Of a stretch of DNA of 64,000 nucleotides, positions 12,683-22,396 are shown in pieces. The stretch spans positions 5,881,001 to 5,945,000 of the forward strand of contig QLII01000001.1 in the NCBI GenBank assembly GCA_003259005.1, given 5' to 3'. Within the stretch, counting starts at the first letter, position 1. Every line of letters begins with the position of its first letter. The translations under genes and the position numbers were made by a program. The stretch comes from Spirosoma telluris (GTDB lineage Bacteria; Bacteroidota; Bacteroidia; Cytophagales; Spirosomataceae). The notes below the pieces were generated by a model, which was given only the letters and a program-made list of their open reading frames with translations, searched no databases and was not told the DNA's origin.

Positions 12683-12885
12683 ACATGTTGCCCTGTTTTG
12701 TAGTACGAATATATATAAGAAAATTAAATATACAAGTAAATAGTTTTATTTTTTCAATTTCTGGCGCCCTCAGAGAGCAACATAGAGTGTTTGAAACTTG
12801 TCTATTAACCAAATGCCATTGCTCCCTTTTTTGGCAATGCCCTATTTCGCCAGTAATTTTAGATTTCCCAATTAAAACTACACTC

Positions 12886-14228
12886 ATGAACAAACGAATC
12901 GGGCTGCTAGTCGGGTTGACGCTCGCGACGGGCATTGTACTGGCGCAGAACAAGCCAAAACCGGAGGATGTCCAGACATTCACCCTCAAAAACGGCATGA
13001 AATTCATGGTCCTCGAAGACCACTCAATCCCCAATGCCAATTTCTATTCATTCTGGAAAGTCGGCTCCCGTAACGAAGTACATGGCATAACAGGACTGTC
13101 GCACTTTTTTGAACACATGATGTTCAACGGAGCTAAAAAATACGGTCCTAAACAGTTTGACCGTGTCATGGAAGCCAACGGCGGTTCGAACAATGCCTAC
13201 ACAACCGAGAATAATACGGTCTATACCGATTGGTTTCAGAGTGGTGCGCTCGAAACAATTTTCGACCTCGAAGCTGACCGTATCCGTGACCTGGCGATTG
13301 ATCCTAAAATGGTGGAGAGCGAACGGGGGTTGTCTTATCGGAACGGAGTACCGGGCTGGAAAATAGTAACTACCGCGTTATTAATGAATTGGTACAATCG
13401 GTGGCGTTTGTTGAGCACCCGTATATGTTTCCGGTAATTGGCTTTGAGTCGGACATTAAAAAGTGGACCCAGGCGGATCTGGAAAAGTATTTCAAGACCT
13501 ACTACTCGCCCAATAATGCCGTTGCCGTGGTGGTTGGTGATGTATCAGCCGCTCAGGTCAAGAAACTAGCTGAGCAGTATATCGAACCGATTCCCGCACA
13601 AAAACTACCGGATAGTCTGCGGACCGTAGAACCTCCCCAGAATGGCGAACGGCGGGCAACTACCTACAAAGACGTAGCAACGCCCAATATTTTGCTGGCT
13701 TATCACACCCCCGCCACTCGACACCCTGATTATTATGCGCTCGATTTGCTGAGTGGTGTGCTGAGTTCGGGAAATTCATCGCGCTTAGTGAAGTCACTCG
13801 TGCTGGATTCGACCATTGCGTCACGAGTGTTTACCAATATGGATCAGTCGTTCGATCCGAGTTTGTTTTCGATTTATGCCATTGCAGCCAGTAATATATC
13901 CGCTGAGCAATTGGAACGTTCGGTGCTTCATCAGATTGATAAGGTAATTAACGAGGGAATTTCGGATGTAGAACTGCAAAAGCTGAAAAATCAGAAATTG
14001 ATGGAGTTCTATCACACAATGGAGTCGATCAACGGAAAGGCGAATTCATTGGGGACGTACGAACTGTTTTTTGGCGATTATAAAAAGCTGTATGAAGCTC
14101 CGGCCTTGTATGAGAAAGTAACTAAAGAAGATGTGCAGCGCGTAGCCAAAACGTATCTGACCAGCCGCAATCGCACCGTTGGTTATCTCTTGCCAGAGCC
14201 GAAGGCTAACCCAGTAAAAAACAATTAA
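12886..14228 (+). CDS. M16 family zinc metallopeptidase, catalytic subunit, frameshifted near 13325-13329
   Basis: A signal peptide (MNKRIGLLVGLTLATGIVLA) is followed by an insulinase-type domain with the inverted zinc motif HFFEH (HxxEH) in GLSHFFEHMMFNGA and downstream acidic residues in FDLEADRIRDLAI. The C-terminal M16 domain ends VGYLLPEPKANPVKNN. The frame breaks in the GGGGG run at 13325-13329; one extra G gives ERGVVLSERSTGLENSNYRV, and the protein becomes about 447 residues. The product is periplasmic or outer-membrane attached. The next gene encodes the likely non-catalytic partner. Confidence 0.9.
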
Positions 14229-15724: not shown

Positions 15725-15732
15725 TACCTTTG
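15725..15732 (+). promoter_or_regulatory. Candidate -7 promoter box of the cobalamin operon
   Basis: TACCTTTG matches TAnnTTTG and lies immediately before the riboswitch, with transcription expected to start about 15739. No clear -33 box is seen. Confidence 0.5.
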
Positions 15733-15740
15733 CCCTGAGT

Positions 15741-15930
15741 TTTCGGTGCCTGATGCTGCTTCGTGGCAGCTTTCAAGGCTTAAAAGGGAAGTTGGTGTAA
15801 AGCCAATGCTGTCCCCGCAACTGTAAGTCTTTTACAAAATCGGTTCAATCTACATAGCCACTGCGCTGATAACCAGCGTGGGAAGGTCAGACCCGACAAG
15901 ACGAGCCAGGAGACCTGCCAAAAACCATCC
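15741..15930 (+). promoter_or_regulatory. Cobalamin (B12) riboswitch
   Basis: The conserved blocks of the cobalamin aptamer occur in order: ggtgcc with a paired side arm, aaaagggaagttggtgtaaa, gccaatgctgtccccgcaac plus tgtaag, gccactg, gtgggaaggtcaga, and the closing gagccaggagacctgcc. The spacing is normal for this class. It precedes a BtuB-type receptor gene by about 95 bases and should switch off the operon when B12 is abundant. Confidence 0.95.
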
Positions 15931-16026
15931 GTTGTTCTGGTGTTCGGAGGAAACGCCCCAACCGCGTGCTAACAGTCCGACTTTTTGGCGGTCTGTCGTT
16001 ACGATGCACATACTTGAACTATAATC

Positions 16027-17962
16027 GTGGGAACACAAGCCCTTCGCTGGTGGCTTATTGGTCTTTCTGTTAGCGTGCTAGCTGGACAGAATAGTTTCGC
16101 GCAAACCGATTCGTTGGTGAGGGCCAGTAATATAGTGTCTTTATCGGCGGTAACCGTGCGGGCTATTGCACCCGAACGTTTCCTGGCAGGGCAGAAACTA
16201 CAGCGAATCGACTCAACCACACTGCTTCAATTTCGGTTTGGCTCGCTGACCGATCTATTGGCATTAAATACGCCGATGGCATTCAAAAATTATGGCCCAG
16301 GCCAGTTAGCAACGGTTGCTTTTCGGGGTACATCGGCCAATCATACGGCAGTGCTTTGGAACGGGATCAATATCAACCAGCCTAATCTTGGCCTGACCGA
16401 TTTTTCAACCCTACCCGTTGCTGGCTTTGATCGATTATCCATTCAGTATGGTTCATCGGCCAGTGCCGTGGGTTCCGATGCAGTAGGAGGGAGTATCCTG
16501 CTTGGGAGTAACCCTGGCTGGAAACCGGGTTTACACGTTTCACTTGGGGGGCAGATCGCTAGTTTTCGAAATACACAGGGGCAGCTAGGGCTACGGTATG
16601 CGTTGGGTCTGGGGCAAAACTGGAAGCTATCGGGAAGACAGTTGCCTACCGAAATCAGTTCAACAACGCCTACCCCTACGCCGAACGGCAGCATTATTTT
16701 ATGGAACCGTCGACAACGGCACAGCGCGGCTTTATCCAGGATCTTTATTTTCTGCACAAAAATGGGCATCAGGTTTCTGTTAATGCCTGGCTGACCGATA
16801 ATGATTTAATTGTTACACCGCAGGATACCATCGCTCGTGAGCGCACCCGAACACAGTCGGCGCGGCTATTGGCTACCTATGAAGCCAATCGAATGACGTT
16901 TCGGGTAGGCTGGATTCGGGATGTATTAGACTATGCAAAAGGAAATTTCGACACCCCAAGTCATACTGAAACAGAGCGACTTATTAGCCGTGCTGAGCGT
17001 GAGTTTTTGCTTCTGTCGGGTACTAATCGGCAACTGAACCTGCGTGTTGGGGCGAGTGGTCGCATTATCGCACCCGAACCGATGGCTATGGTGACCAGTT
17101 GATTCAGGAAGACCGGGGGGATGTATACGCACTATTGCGTTTCCAAACAATGCGCTGGCTCGTATCAGCTAACATTCGCCAAGCCTTTGTAACGCGCTTT
17201 AATCCACCCCTCACGCCGTCGCTTGGTGCTGAATACCAGCTTGTTCAGCGTAGCCGGTTTAAGCTGACTACTAAAGGATCGGTGAGTCGAAACTACCGGG
17301 TGCCTACCTTAAACGAACGTTACTGGATTGACTTAGGGAACCCTAACCTTTTGCCCGAAAGTGGCCTGAATTTCGAGGCTGGGTTGGCAGCAGCTATGCC
17401 CTTATCGGATCAGGTTAACCTAACGGCTGAACTGACAGGGTATCATAATCGGGTTGATAATTGGACCTATTGGAACCCAGCAATCAATTACCACGTCGAA
17501 AATCTGCAATTGGTAATCGCTCGCGGGGCCGAATTTACTACCAACTTGACCTACGCGCAGACTAGCTGGCGTGCCGGTATGCGACTCGGTTATGCACTAA
17601 CTCGTTCCTCACAAGAGCGCGCTTATGATACTTACTCGCAGGATGTTATTGGGAAGCAACTGGTGTATGTACCCATGCATACGGGTACCCTCAATACATA
17701 TCTTCAGTATAAACAAACTCGCTTAAGTGTACAAATGCAGGCCAATTCGCGCCGGTACATCACTTTCGATAATACCCAGTTTTTTAAAGGGGCTTTGCTG
17801 ACCAACGTGTTGTTGGAACATACGCTCAAATGGGGCTCTATGCCTTTTCGGGTGCAGGGGCAAATAAACAATGTATTCGACGCGCTGGTCATCGGAGTGA
17901 AGCGAAACGCGCTTCCGGGCCGAAACTGGGCAATTAATGTGCTTATCAATTTCCCTCAATAA
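16027..17962 (+). CDS. btuB: BtuB-like TonB-dependent cobalamin receptor, two frameshifts
   Basis: Start is GTG at 16027, followed by a signal peptide ending NSFAQ. The plug domain contains LTDLLALNTPMAFKNYGPGQ, VAFRGTSANHTAVLWNGINI and GGSILLGS. The barrel ends with NNVFDALVIGVKRNALPGRN and the terminal aromatic-rich strand INVLINFPQ. Frame breaks occur near 16632-16634 (GGG run; restored reading GKTVAYRNQFNNAYPYAERQ) and near 17071-17082. With two bases added the protein is about 645 residues, normal for this family. The B12 riboswitch upstream supports cobalamin or cobinamide as ligand. Confidence 0.9.
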
Positions 17963-17965
17963 TTC

Positions 17966-19018
17966 ATGAAAAATCAATTGACTAAATCAATTGCAATTGG
18001 GCTGGTAGCCCTCAGTGTCTGGAACTGTAAAACCTCTGATCCGGAACCAACTCCCTATGAGTCAGGTGTATTTATTCTGAATGCCGGTAATTTTTTCAGC
18101 AATAATGGTACAGTTTCGTTTCTGGCCCGTAACAGCCAAACAGTAGCAACCAATATTTTTCAGGCAGCAAACCCCTCATTAGTGTCGAGCGGTGGCGTAC
18201 AGGGGTATACGGAAGTTAATGGTAAAGGGCTAATTCTGGTTGATAATAGCACAACTGGACAGGATAAAGTGGAAATCGTTGAAGCGGGTACCTTTGTATC
18301 GCGTGCTACGCTAAAAACGCCAGATATTGAAAACCCACGCCAGGTTATTCAGGTTGGCCCTAACAAAGCCTATATTAGTTGCTGGGACGTTTCGGGTTCT
18401 GGTAGTGCGTTTTACAAAGATCCTGGTTATATCGCCGTGGTGGATTTGAACACTAACACCGTTTCGAAAAAAATACCTGCTGTAAAAGGGGCTGAAAAAA
18501 TGGTCGTTTCCGGGACGGAAGCGTTTATCGGAAGTAACACCTACAGTGGTGACCAAACGCTGTTGATTGTTGATGTAAATACGGACACAGAAAAACAACG
18601 TATTGCTTTCGGATCAACGCCTGAGCCAATTGCGCTCGATGCAAATGGAAAATTGTGGATACAGGCGGGTAAAGATCTGGTTCAGCTAGACCCATTGACC
18701 CGGATTGTCGCTAAACGGTTGACTTTTCCTGCGGCCCCCGGTTCTGTAACTATTAGTACCGATAAAAAGTCATTCTACTATACGTTAAGCGGGAAAACCT
18801 ATAATTTGCCAATTGATGCCACCGCAGCATCGGGCAGTATCGTGATAGCCCGGTCATTTAGTACGCTGGCCATCGACCCACAAACTAAACGAATTTATGG
18901 TAGTCAGAGTCCGCTTCTTTATACACAGGCAGGCTATGTAATTCGTTACGAATCCACAGGTACACTGGTTGACTCGGTTAAGGCCGAGATTGCGCCCTCT
19001 GGATTTTATTTCCGATGA
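17966..19018 (+). CDS. BtuG-like surface lipoprotein (YncE/DUF5074-type beta-propeller)
   Basis: The 350-residue protein has an N-terminal lipoprotein signal with Cys21 in LSVWNC followed by TSDPEPTP, then repeated propeller blades of the type PGYIAVVDLNTNTVSKKIPA, QTLLIVDVNTDTEKQRIAFG and LVQLDPLTRIVAKRLTF. It starts 3 bases after btuB. In gut Bacteroides, BtuG propeller lipoproteins on the cell surface bind B12 very tightly and hand it to BtuB; the position and fold make that the best guess here. The lipobox is not canonical at -1 and -3. Confidence 0.82.
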   Translation: MKNQLTKSIAIGLVALSVWNCKTSDPEPTPYESGVFILNAGNFFSNNGTVSFLARNSQTVATNIFQAANPSLVSSGGVQGYTEVNGKGLILVDNSTTGQDKVEIVEAGTFVSRATLKTPDIENPRQVIQVGPNKAYISCWDVSGSGSAFYKDPGYIAVVDLNTNTVSKKIPAVKGAEKMVVSGTEAFIGSNTYSGDQTLLIVDVNTDTEKQRIAFGSTPEPIALDANGKLWIQAGKDLVQLDPLTRIVAKRLTFPAAPGSVTISTDKKSFYYTLSGKTYNLPIDATAASGSIVIARSFSTLAIDPQTKRIYGSQSPLLYTQAGYVIRYESTGTLVDSVKAEIAPSGFYFR

Positions 19019-19746
19019 GTCGTCAACGGGCAATCATGAACTGGAGCGGGGGCAAAGATTCAGCCCTGGCGCTGTATCATAGTCTCCGGTCGCAGCGATG
19101 GGATATACATAAGCTACTGACATCGATAAATGACCAACATGGCCGCATCAGTATGCACGGTGTTCGAACCGATTTGTTAATCGCTCAGGCCGATCGTTTG
19201 GGACTGCCTTTGCAGCTGTTACGGTTGGCAGGCGATGTGTCAATGGAGACCTACAACGCTCAAATGCAGGAGACGCTACAGTTGGTTCGGGAGCAAGGCA
19301 TCACCCATTCGATTTTCGGAGATATTTTTCTGGAGGACCTTCGACAATACCGCGAAAGCCAATTGAAACGGGTAAACCTGACGGGTGAATTTCCGCTCTG
19401 GCAGCGAAATACAACCGAGTTACTTCATGAGTTTGTCGATTTAGGGTTCCGGGCGGTGCTTGTTTGTGTTAATGAGAAACAGCTAGGTGCTGAGTTTGTA
19501 GGACGAGAACTGGATCTGGATTTATTGAAAGAGCTGCCTAAAACGGTTGATCCTTGTGGCGAAAATGGCGAATACCACTCGTTTGTGTATGACGGCCCTA
19601 TTTTCTCCAGTCCCATCCGATTTACCAAAGGAGACATAGTCCGACGAACCTACACGCCATCAGGTGGCACAGATTGCCACGTGGATGACACTGACCGAAG
19701 TTGGGATACAGGTTTCTGGTATCAGGATTTGCTTTTACAGGAATGA
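19015..19746 (+). CDS. DUF71/COG2102 ATP-pyrophosphatase, B12-associated group
   Basis: A 243-residue PP-loop protein with the ATP-binding motif MNWSGGKDSALALYHSL at the start, GRISMHGVRTDLL, IFGDIFLEDLRQYRE and the C-terminal DPCGENGEYHSFVYDGPIF typical of Dph6-like enzymes. Its ATG overlaps the preceding stop by 4 bases, so it is translationally coupled to the lipoprotein gene. Archaeal and eukaryotic members make diphthamide, which bacteria lack. Comparative genomics has placed a bacterial subgroup in B12 salvage, and the riboswitch operon fits that. Reaction unknown. Confidence 0.85.
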   Translation: MSRQRAIMNWSGGKDSALALYHSLRSQRWDIHKLLTSINDQHGRISMHGVRTDLLIAQADRLGLPLQLLRLAGDVSMETYNAQMQETLQLVREQGITHSIFGDIFLEDLRQYRESQLKRVNLTGEFPLWQRNTTELLHEFVDLGFRAVLVCVNEKQLGAEFVGRELDLDLLKELPKTVDPCGENGEYHSFVYDGPIFSSPIRFTKGDIVRRTYTPSGGTDCHVDDTDRSWDTGFWYQDLLLQE

Positions 19747-19771
19747 TGAAATAATCAGGAACTCTCTCGTC

Positions 19772-19828
19772 AAAAAGGCAGAAAGCCGGGTTGGGATTTG
19801 AAATCCTGGTCCGGCTTTTGCCTTTTTT
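19772..19828 (+). terminator. Rho-independent terminator of the cobalamin operon
   Basis: AAAAAGGCAGAAAGCCGG pairs with CCGGCTTTTGCCTTTTTT around a loop that itself can pair (GGGATTTGAAATCC). The T run ends at about 19828, 82 bases after the last gene. Confidence 0.85.
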
Positions 19829-20684: not shown

Positions 20685-22396
20685 ATGAACCTCAATATTG
20701 ATTCGATAAAAGAACAGACCTACGATGCCATTGTGATTGGCTCGGGTATTACGGGTGGATGGGCTTCTAAGGAGCTGACCGAGAAAGGCTTACGGGTGTT
20801 AATGCTCGAAAAAGGCCATCAGCTTGAGCACGTATCGGGCTATGTAAATGCTACGAAAGATCCCTGGCAGACCAAGTATAATGGCCGGCTGACGATGGCG
20901 CAAAAGGAATCGCACCCGAAACTGGCCCGCGATTACCCTTATAATGAAATGACAGAAACCTACTGGATGAAAGATACCGACTCGCTGTATAAAGAAGACA
21001 AGCGGTTCGACTGGTATCGTCCAAATATCGTTGGGGGTAAGTCAATCATGTGGGGCGGCAATCCTATCGGCTGAGCGATATTGATTTCGAAGCCAACGCC
21101 AAAGAAGGAGTCGCCATTGACTGGCCCATTCGCTATAAAGACGTGGCTCCCTGGTATTCCTACGTTGAGAAATTCGTGGGAATTTCGGGGGAGAAACTGA
21201 ACCTGCCGCAATTGCCCGACAGTGAATTCCTGCCACCAATGGAGATGTATTGTGTGGAGAAAGAAGTTCGGAAGCGTATCGAAAAGAACTTCCCTGGCCG
21301 GGTTATGACCATTGGTCGGGTTGCTAACCTCTCAAAAGCCGGTGAAGCCCAGTTGGGCGTTGGCCGCGCTCCCTGTCAGTATAGAAACAAATGCTCGCTT
21401 GGGTGTCCCTACGGTGCTTATTTTAGCACGCAGTCCTGTACGTTGCCGCCAGCCGCTAAAACCGGACGCCTGACGCTACGGCCCGATTCGGTAGTAACGG
21501 AGATACTATACGACGAAAACAAAAAACGGGCAACGGGTGTCCGCATTGTCGATGCGGTTACCCTTCAACCCAAGGAGTACTTCGCGAAAATTGTTTTTGT
21601 GTGCGGTAGTGCGCTCGGATCGACGGCTATTCTACTAAATTCAAAATCTAACCGTTTTCCTAATGGCTTCGGCAATGATTCGGGTGAGTTAGGGCACAAT
21701 CTAATGGATCACCACTTCCGCACGGGCGCATCGGGTGTCTGGGAAGGTGATCTGGACAAGTATTATATTGGTCGACGAGCAAATGGTATTTACGTACCCC
21801 GTTACCGGAATATCGGTACCGATAAGCGGGATTACCTACGCGGTTTTGGTTATCAGGGTGGAGGAAGCCGAACCGGATGGCAGCGTAACATTGCCGAAAT
21901 GAGTTTTGGTGCTGATTATAAAGATGAACTAACCAAACCCGGACCCTGGACAATGGGATTAGGCGGTTTTGGAGAGACATTACCCTATCACGAAAACCGC
22001 ATGTACCTCGATAAGAACGAAAAAGATAAGTGGGGCATGCCACTCGTTGTATTCGACGCTGAGTTGAAGGAGAACGAGAAAAAAATGCGTATAGATATGA
22101 TGAACGATGCCAAAGAAATGCTGGAAGCATCGGGCCTGAAAAACGTCAGATCTTATGATAACGGCTCCTACTTAGGTATGGCGATTCATGAAATGGGAAC
22201 GGCCCGGATGGGACGCGACCCCAAAACGTCGGTGCTGAATGCCAACAATCAGGTTCACGGCGTTAAGAACGTATTCGTAACAGACGGTGCCTGTATGGTC
22301 TCGACTTCGTGCGTAAATCCATCATTAACCTACATGGCGCTTACAGCACGTGCTGCAGATTTTGCTGTCAAAGAAATGAAGAGACAGAATATATAA
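20685..22396 (+). CDS. GMC-family oxidoreductase (gluconate-dehydrogenase-type large subunit), frameshifted near 21052-21055
   Basis: The N-terminus binds FAD (DAIVIGSGITGGWASKEL, then RVLMLEKG). The C-terminus has AIHEMGTARMGRDPKTSVL with the catalytic His region, NVFVTDGACMV and NPSLTYMALTARAADFAVKE, all GMC hallmarks. A four-Cys stretch RNKCSLGCPYGAYFSTQSC is present. The frame breaks in the GGGG run at 21052-21055; one added base gives SIMWGRQSYRLSDIDFEA and a protein of about 570 residues. It oxidises a sugar or alcohol; the exact substrate is unknown. Confidence 0.9.

Follow-up and report, generated by a model that had tools for sequence, protein, structure and literature searches.

The gene run at positions 15,725 to 19,828 of the Spirosoma telluris DNA analysed here (a stretch of 64,000 nucleotides, hereafter the window) is best explained, with a probability that we put at roughly 0.7, as a B12-repressible uptake operon whose last gene encodes a DUF71 enzyme that acts on complete, imported cobamide. 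Amide formation is the likeliest chemistry for that enzyme, although as a claim by itself it is speculative and less likely than not. The anatomy of the operon, the homology of its products, their conservation, and the finding of no CobS or CbiB match in the genome are results of computation. The features are as follows.

15725..15732, + strand: possible Bacteroidota-type -7 promoter element TACCTTTG (exact match, weak)
15747..15936, + strand: complete cobalamin riboswitch aptamer RF00174 (102.6 bits, E 1.5e-24, model positions 1-189 of 189)
16027..17962, + strand: btuB-like TonB-dependent receptor, spread over three frames (ORFs; Pfam, NCBIfam; relatives)
17966..19018, + strand: btuG-like lipoprotein, DUF5074 beta-propeller (PF16819, 70.3 bits; profile; fold model)
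19015..19746, + strand: DUF71/COG2102 (Diphthami_syn_2) N-type ATP pyrophosphatase with ENGEYH motif (PF01902, 125 bits)
about 19772..19828, + strand: intrinsic terminator, long hairpin then T-run (-32.4 kcal/mol, z -4.46)

Organization of the operon

A preliminary description of this DNA had placed a complete B12 riboswitch at the head of the gene run, and the Rfam search bears this out: the full model is matched at a score far above the gathering cut-off of 31.5 bits, and neither the rest of the window nor the rest of the S. telluris genome yielded a second RF00174 match. Through this riboswitch the operon would be repressible by B12. The 99 bases from 15932, where the expression platform would lie, fold no more stably than shuffled sequences (z 0.72). 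Upstream, TACCTTTG is an exact match to what we take to be the -7 box consensus of the Bacteroidota type, a motif that occurs in the window at chance frequency (39 seen, 46 expected); in several relatives the riboswitch match opens with CTTTG.

The run had been described as three genes with spacings of 3 and minus 4 bases. Both spacings stand, with 3 bases separating the last btuB stop from btuG and a 4-base overlap (ATGA) joining btuG to the DUF71 gene, but btuB itself lies in three frames and not in one ORF. The btuG-like and DUF71 ORFs are both intact, and their overlap, as ATGA or GTGA, is kept in 10 of the 10 type-1 Spirosoma junctions listed (the window and L185-L193); the two genes are probably translationally coupled. 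The terminator attributed to the run is likewise present, its hairpin being matched in stability by none of 200 shuffles; it also appears in a window-wide scan, whose total of 5 sites shows no excess over the shuffle mean of 5.9. With G014 and S. arboris (L192) as comparators, a simple counting script puts dN/dS at 0.04-0.08 for btuG and DUF71; the values are rough because dS exceeds 1 and is infinite against G011.

The btuB-like receptor and its frameshifts

The receptor is divided into ORFs at 16027-16794, 16701-17102 and 17099-17962 by a first frameshift at about 16634 and a second at about 17048. The frameshifts are likely sequencing indels, since btuB is a single ORF of 645-685 amino acids in the five type-1 relatives listed and two neighbouring genes, for an M16 peptidase and a GMC protein, are likewise broken here but unbroken in relatives. 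Decay of the operon in this strain, with btuB a true pseudogene, as the break of that gene into three frames could suggest, is scarcely credible given those neighbours, the low (if rough) dN/dS kept by btuG and DUF71, and an assembly completeness of 94.65%, which is under that of most relatives.

Searched as separate frames, the pieces match the Pfam models Plug (49.3 bits) and TonB_dep_Rec_b-barrel (90.1 bits); the intact btuB of one relative (L020) itself matches Plug at no better than E 0.001. The best NCBIfam model is TIGR01779 (TonB-B12), at 54.2 and 51.6 bits for the pieces and 97.4 bits for an intact relative, against an equivalog cut-off of 599.7 bits that none of them reaches; because this model is still the top-scoring one despite scores so far under its cut-off, the protein is called BtuB-like. 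Receptors in other genomes were sought with profiles, since tblastn missed divergent ones.

The propeller lipoprotein is a BtuG homologue

The middle gene, previously taken for a beta-propeller lipoprotein of BtuG type, does encode a BtuG homologue. A profile search retrieves the sequences of nine BtuG structures from Bacteroides at E 1.6e-31 to 3.9e-30, and E. coli YncE is absent from its matches at E up to 0.01. The comparison of predicted structure with BtuG that had been proposed gives the same answer: with a model (pLDDT 79.1) built on an alignment of nine sequences, the 16 best Foldseek rows are all BtuG (TM 0.72-0.76, E 1e-18), the nearest others being an archaeal propeller at 2.1e-12 and BtuK1 at 3.7e-12, with E. 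coli YncE ranked at 1.8e-8. Cys21, preceded by SVWN, is the probable lipoprotein cysteine, and every one of 44 BtuG-related sequences has a cysteine somewhere in residues 1-40, although the test is crude and for a few of them selects an earlier cysteine.

The propeller is predicted to bind corrinoids. In the alignment its loop N39-T49, NAGNFFSNNGT, lies opposite NEGNFQYGNAT of BtuG3 and, by numbering that we transferred, may be equated with Asn54-Thr64, the ligand-gripping loop of BtuG2 (PMC10404256). A loop pattern of our own is found in 32 of 44 homologues, and all 12 misses come from Dyadobacter loci. Binding of another ligand by a general YncE-type propeller might be read from weak NCBIfam matches to PQQ and YVTN propellers and from Trp194 of the BtuG2 pocket, which has no apparent conservation in the BtuG alignment; it is a very improbable reading in view of the large gap between BtuG and YncE in both searches and of the btuB-like match found ahead of the propeller gene at 47 of the 51 BtuG-related loci.

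A riboswitch precedes 39 of these 51 loci by our own pattern. Three patterns were used in turn, the first too strict, the second looser and the third final; the last recovers 14 of 14 Rfam riboswitches upstream of DUF71 in L020-L035 and misses one, in G212, that the first had caught, so that riboswitch counts are lower bounds. Loci of btuB and btuG with the riboswitch pattern upstream occur in Spirosoma, Dyadobacter, Larkinella, Rudanella and others, which upholds the earlier suggestion of a BtuG-type device in an environmental relative, outside gut Bacteroides. The BtuB2G2 and BtuB3G3 systems of Bacteroides thetaiotaomicron, as described in PMC10404256 and PMC6143338, likewise combine a riboswitch with a TonB receptor beside a BtuG-type propeller lipoprotein. 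Homology to BtuG extends over propeller and fold (~21% identity in the fold alignment) and the ligand-loop pattern is kept; unlike there, btuG in the window is overlapped by a DUF71 gene. PF01902 has no match in B. ihuae, the sole Bacteroides among the control genomes.

The DUF71 protein and its place in the family

The last product carries ENGEYH, the motif (ENGEF/YH replacing EGGE/DxE) published for the DUF71-B12 subgroup of COG2102, and resembles that subgroup (PMC3541065) in its PP-loop residues and B12 operon context as well. The motif was dropped as proof of the B12 subgroup: E.GE[FY]H is present in 114 of the 117 DUF71 rows examined and so does not discriminate. Since, in addition, neither a riboswitch nor btuB nor btuG was detected in the neighbourhood of 68 of the 99 rows in the window's DUF71 clade (by our own pattern and small profiles, on contigs some of which are short), motif and family alone do not prove a B12 role for the window protein.

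These 68 rows, a few of which do have other B12 genes nearby (for example G127 and G035), and five loci of family f12 that by eye have unrelated neighbours, favour a general function unrelated to B12, with the downstream position accidental. This is nonetheless unlikely. DUF71 adjoins btuG in 18 of 117 rows, belonging to several lineages (families f1, f19 and f5) from separate parts of the DUF71 tree; the 4-base overlap persists at every type-1 junction listed; one genus has three genomes with DUF6580 and DUF71 immediately after a riboswitch (the DUF6580 matches, from a query that began at a wrong start and contained a stop, being a rough guide); and in G190 the order is btuB-btuG-CobU-DUF71-CobT-CobS-CobC. 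Larkinella soli likewise has DUF71 next to btuG, and so does a Bacteroidales MAG, where the DUF71 ORF is partial.

On a tree of 114 rows the fewest label changes are 12 for presence in a B12 operon and 7 for BtuG adjacency, figures given without a shuffle control. The tree was drawn within the order; it excludes the motif-less rows G087, G058 and G104, which are counted in the clade and operon tallies, and five distant sequences were tallied as 'far'. It is a quick tree whose long branches join at the base, so that its deep split is provisional. The window's clade is set by a long branch away from the DUF71 proteins beside CobU/CobT/CobS in G034 and G022.

The invariance of the ATP-binding PP-loop residues GGKDS in the DUF71 alignment, the final position of the gene in an uptake operon and the riboswitch-DUF6580-DUF71 order would also suit another B12 step, in which DUF71, as an ATP-dependent corrinoid enzyme not recognised before, handles or adenosylates the corrinoid after import. 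Known adenosyl transfer, however, releases triphosphate, whereas the N-type ATP pyrophosphatase fold is expected to adenylate, and inspection by eye showed a PduO-like gene in a Spirosoma that lacks DUF71 (G003, L078); we consider this step improbable.

The chemistry that we favour, speculatively and by analogy, is ATP-dependent amidation of side chains as in Dph6. With Dph6 (PF0828, 3RK0/3RK1) the window protein shares the sequence family, the PP-loop and the C-terminal GE.GE motif, and the motif glutamate of PF0828 (E188, in EGGE/DxE) is replaced by His at the aligned place. Bacteria lack diphthamide (PMC3541065).

B12-assembly genes and the published proposal

Bacterial DUF71 function has been a matter of prediction since 2012 (PMC3541065); among the matches listed from the open-licence literature, no paper testing it was found. 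In the proposal made there, DUF71-B12 takes the place of bacterial CbiZ and cleaves pseudo-B12, and CbiB, the next enzyme, would rebuild the resulting adenosylcobyric acid. The paper reports clustering with btuCDF and cbiB and a strict anti-correlation with CbiZ in bacteria; 'another route' by which it would have pseudo-B12 salvaged stays compatible with the results below. Although the ENGEF/YH motif and the riboswitch operon context of the window protein agree with the CbiZ idea, the genome tables do not. Neither CobS nor CbiB has a match in the S. telluris genome, as assembled to 94.65% completeness, and in this it differs from the proposal, so CbiZ substitution with CbiB next cannot work here as stated. 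CbiB has no match in 15 of 15 DUF71-bearing Spirosoma genomes. Of 241 genomes sampled across the order, 24 have CbiB, and 16 of these have neither DUF71 nor CbiZ; CbiB is missing from 87 of the 95 with DUF71, the other 8 all belonging to one genus. Where DUF71 lies in a detected B12 operon (33 genomes), CbiB is found in none and CobS is missing from 21. CbiZ itself has no match in any of the 241, the sample to which that search was confined, nine extra Spirosoma genomes lying outside it. The assignment of DUF71 to B12 salvage, a prediction that the preliminary description had cited, thus does not fit here in its main published form, and the CbiZ idea has become hardly tenable.

None of the 7 type-1 Spirosoma genomes has a CobS match, whereas all 12 other genomes in the set for the genus do; three of the type-1 relatives without it (G004, G011, G014) are single-contig assemblies, 99-100% complete. 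A type-1 genome on a short contig, G012, is included in the Spirosoma counts of CobS and CbiB and stands outside the 68-of-99 and 33-genome counts. A wider correlation between DUF71 and CobS was tried and dropped. Order-wide, DUF71 has no association with either CobS (Fisher p 0.33) or CbiB (0.66), and on the BtuG tree a tree-aware test of DUF71 beside BtuG against lack of CobS runs in a single direction (0 pairs changing the same way, 2-3 the opposite way) with too few independent pairs (4; median p 0.25). That test counted as adjacent two loci, both with CobS, in which DUF71 precedes btuG. CobS was searched at 43 of the 51 BtuG loci, leaving out L226 and L228-L234, and 7 of the 18 genomes with BtuG-adjacent DUF71 have it (six of type 2, and G212).

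Proposed mechanism and its meaning

When cobamide is scarce, the riboswitch would allow expression of the BtuB-like receptor and the BtuG-like lipoprotein, and in Spirosoma these may catch corrinoids at the cell surface as a lid-and-pore pair, as in Bacteroides. The cytoplasmic DUF71 enzyme, whose gene overlaps btuG and is probably coupled to it, would then work on cobamide that arrives complete. The lack of a CobS or CbiB match in the genome would place this enzyme outside nucleotide-loop assembly, and its substrates are probably intact imported corrinoids; like its relative Dph6 it could form amides at the expense of ATP, for example by restoring them on corrin side chains that have been hydrolysed.

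For a sample of one order, the genome tables argue against the leading proposal for DUF71, and they point to genomes in which DUF71 must work with no recognisable CobS or CbiB, so that its substrate is directly testable. A bolder conjecture, which is doubtful as yet, is that the large DUF71 clade to which the window protein belongs represents an unrecognised cobamide-maintenance ligase, ATP-dependent, that re-amidates or repairs whole corrinoids delivered by BtuB-BtuG. If this were true, damaged environmental B12 would be usable by bacteria unable to build or rebuild the nucleotide loop.

The cobalamin locus and its frame breaks

The window genome (9.09 Mb in 4 contigs, completeness 94.65%) contains one match to RF00174, a full cobalamin aptamer, which is followed on its 3' side by genes for a TonB receptor, a DUF5074 lipoprotein and a DUF71 protein, with a strong terminator at the end, so that the run described in the preliminary description, headed by a full riboswitch and closed by its own terminator, is borne out. 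The nearest named match to the lipoprotein, here called BtuG, is from Spirosoma arboris (90%), placed by NCBI in Cytophagales, Bacteroidota.

12685-14228, M16 gene, frame-split in the window, whole in relatives
15747-15936, cobalamin aptamer, full, 102.6 bits
17966-19018, btuG-like gene
19015-19746, DUF71 gene
20685-22396, GMC oxidoreductase gene, frame-split in the window, whole in relatives

Spirosoma B12 loci have two layouts: type 1, that of the window (riboswitch, btuB, btuG, DUF71), and type 2, in which the riboswitch leads a different btuB, then DUF6580, usually a gene for a periplasmic binding protein, a CobU match, DUF71 and, in most cases, btuG. The receptor gene did not prove to be the one intact gene first described; it is spread over three reading frames in the window assembly and is a single ORF in five type-1 relatives (645-685 aa, the longest possibly with its start set too far upstream). 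The split M16 peptidase and GMC genes suggest that the assembly is indel-prone, and because four frame breaks hit three genes (btuB, M16 peptidase and GMC) within about 10 kb, the breaks point to sequencing indels; that btuB is truly decaying in the window strain is possible but unlikely.

The type-1 genomes of the genus set are the window's and six others, one of them fragmentary; a second RF00174 match is present in 5 of these six, and in four of the five (G014, G011, G009, G004) it precedes metE, recognised by eye. By the same visual recognition metE lies 3' of a second cobalamin riboswitch at Spirosoma loci L067, L068, L069, L071, L074 and L075, followed in L067, L071, L074 and L075 by a thioesterase-like gene; a similar gene stands directly 5' of DUF71 in L096, L100 and L135. 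Long AT-rich insertions extend the aptamers of loci L020 (4642-4926) and L025 (4595-4930) to 285 and 336 bases, compared with about 190-230 in the others printed.

The lipoprotein as a BtuG-like propeller

A profile built from nine sequences of the genus Spirosoma hits nine distinct BtuG-type PDB sequences over the propeller (E 1.6e-31 to 3.9e-30) and three BtuG1-type sequences at about 1e-7 to 1e-6. When the AlphaFold model of the window protein (pLDDT 79.1; residues 1-28 under 50) was compared by Foldseek, the 16 best rows were all BtuG structures (E 1.4e-18 to 3.0e-13, TM 0.72-0.76, rmsd about 3-4 A), with E. coli YncE at 1.8e-8. Profile, model and structural matches thus uphold the initial assignment of the middle gene. 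In BtuG2 simulations cobalamin is reported to be held by loop Asn54-Thr64 (PMC10404256), which by alignment would correspond to N39-T49 of the window protein, with the numbering carried over to BtuG3 by us; BtuG2 Trp194 is apparently not conserved.

Distribution of BtuG loci

According to Wexler et al. (PMC6143338), BtuG was confined to Bacteroidetes among the 313 human gut genomes searched. One scan of GTDB genomes with a BtuG profile found 51 loci, with a btuB-like match upstream in 47 and a riboswitch in 39, as judged by our own profiles and pattern; the loci lacking btuB are L229, with just 371 bases available upstream, and L232, L233 and L234, whose BtuG matches are weak or partial. DUF71 lies directly 3' of BtuG in nine Spirosoma loci, Larkinella soli and one Bacteroidales MAG (partial ORF), and elsewhere in the stretch at six further loci. 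The same M16 gene pair precedes the locus in several genomes of both types (the window, L020, L021 and L024; L027, L030, L031, L033 and L034), and is not found before L023, L025, L028 and L029. In the BtuG tree L201 (Flavobacterium sp. SUN052) pairs with a Rudanella MAG (support 100/100), reflecting either horizontal transfer or a mislabelled record.

DUF71 and the corrinoid genes of its genomes

DUF71-B12 has been proposed to perform the job of bacterial CbiZ, with CbiB acting next, or to serve another route of pseudo-B12 salvage (PMC3541065). Within the genus set, CobS matches occur in 0/7 type-1 genomes, in 8/8 with DUF71 of the type-2 kind (including G015, whose DUF71 sits outside any B12 operon) and in 4/4 without DUF71, and CbiB in 0/15 genomes with DUF71 and 2/4 without. 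Among 241 Cytophagales genomes, 95 have DUF71, 24 CbiB, 84 CobS and none CbiZ, by a search whose control was positive in 5 of 14 named genomes. The 95 comprise 58 without CobS and CbiB, 29 with CobS only and 8, all of one genus, with both; across the sample DUF71 shows no association with CobS or CbiB (Fisher p 0.33 and 0.66). Where DUF71 has a riboswitch pattern upstream or btuG adjacent (36 rows, 33 genomes), CbiB is never found and CobS is absent in 21, and 16 of the 24 CbiB-containing genomes have neither DUF71 nor CbiZ. Because these counts do not fit it, the CbiZ-substitute idea, and with it that form of the salvage role first suggested for the window's DUF71, fails for this sample, as judged by known gene families; DUF71 may still serve another salvage route.

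CobS was found in 24 of the 43 BtuG-locus genomes covered by its search (out of 51; two matches, L197 and L214, weak or partial): 0/11 with DUF71 directly after BtuG (nine type-1 Spirosoma, L200 and L227; L188, L190 and L193 overlap genomes searched earlier), 4/6 with it elsewhere in the stretch and 20/26 with none there. These 43 genomes are related to one another, and on a tree of 47 BtuG sequences the contrast, drawn from no more than 4 independent pairs (median p 0.25), runs in one direction. Six type-2 genomes, and G212, have both CobS and a DUF71 adjacent to BtuG.

The window DUF71 has the motif ENGEYH, in which His replaces the glutamate of Dph6; E.GE[FY]H occurs in 114 of 117 DUF71 rows. 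In a quick-method tree of 114 rows, a clade of 99 includes both Spirosoma types and a clade of 10 has six rows with riboswitch and receptor and two with CobU, CobT and CobS adjoining; eight genomes have one DUF71 from each. Near 68 of the 99 large-clade rows no riboswitch, btuB or btuG was detected, although a few of these 68 have other B12 genes close by; this weighs most against a strict B12 role, and unclustered genes may be the cause. Tandem DUF71 pairs occur at L156 and L209 (Pseudarcicella hirudinis); the L156 pair, the one included in the tree, has a member in each clade, an arrangement that suggests the two copies serve different functions in a single pathway. At L087, L154 and L158 (three genomes of one genus, same family) a riboswitch is followed directly by a DUF6580 membrane protein and then DUF71, with no receptor between; CobS and CbiB were not found in these genomes, and a biotin synthase look-alike, recognised by eye, lies closely downstream in L087. 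DUF6580 turns up repeatedly in B12 operons and is a possible corrinoid transporter; its name was not found in the openly licensed literature searched.

Proposed function

The component parts of the window operon are already known; further Bacteroides binders (PMC12751083) and the use of BtuG as a soil-corrinoid reagent (PMC11287211) are reported, and in PMC5481537 and PMC8305020 DUF71 appears in the reference list only, as the 2012 prediction paper. Neither the btuG/DUF71 overlap in genomes that match neither CobS nor CbiB nor a genome-wide test against the CbiZ model was found in the openly licensed literature searched. The best reading is that corrinoid would be taken up via BtuB-BtuG and that DUF71 would then work on the intact corrinoid, with ATP-dependent amidation a speculative candidate chemistry, favoured only by analogy to Dph6. 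Spirosoma endophyticum (L184), in which riboswitch, btuB and btuG are close kin of the window's, no DUF71 lies within 6 kb downstream of btuB-btuG and CobS is present in the genome, offers a natural comparison for the window locus.
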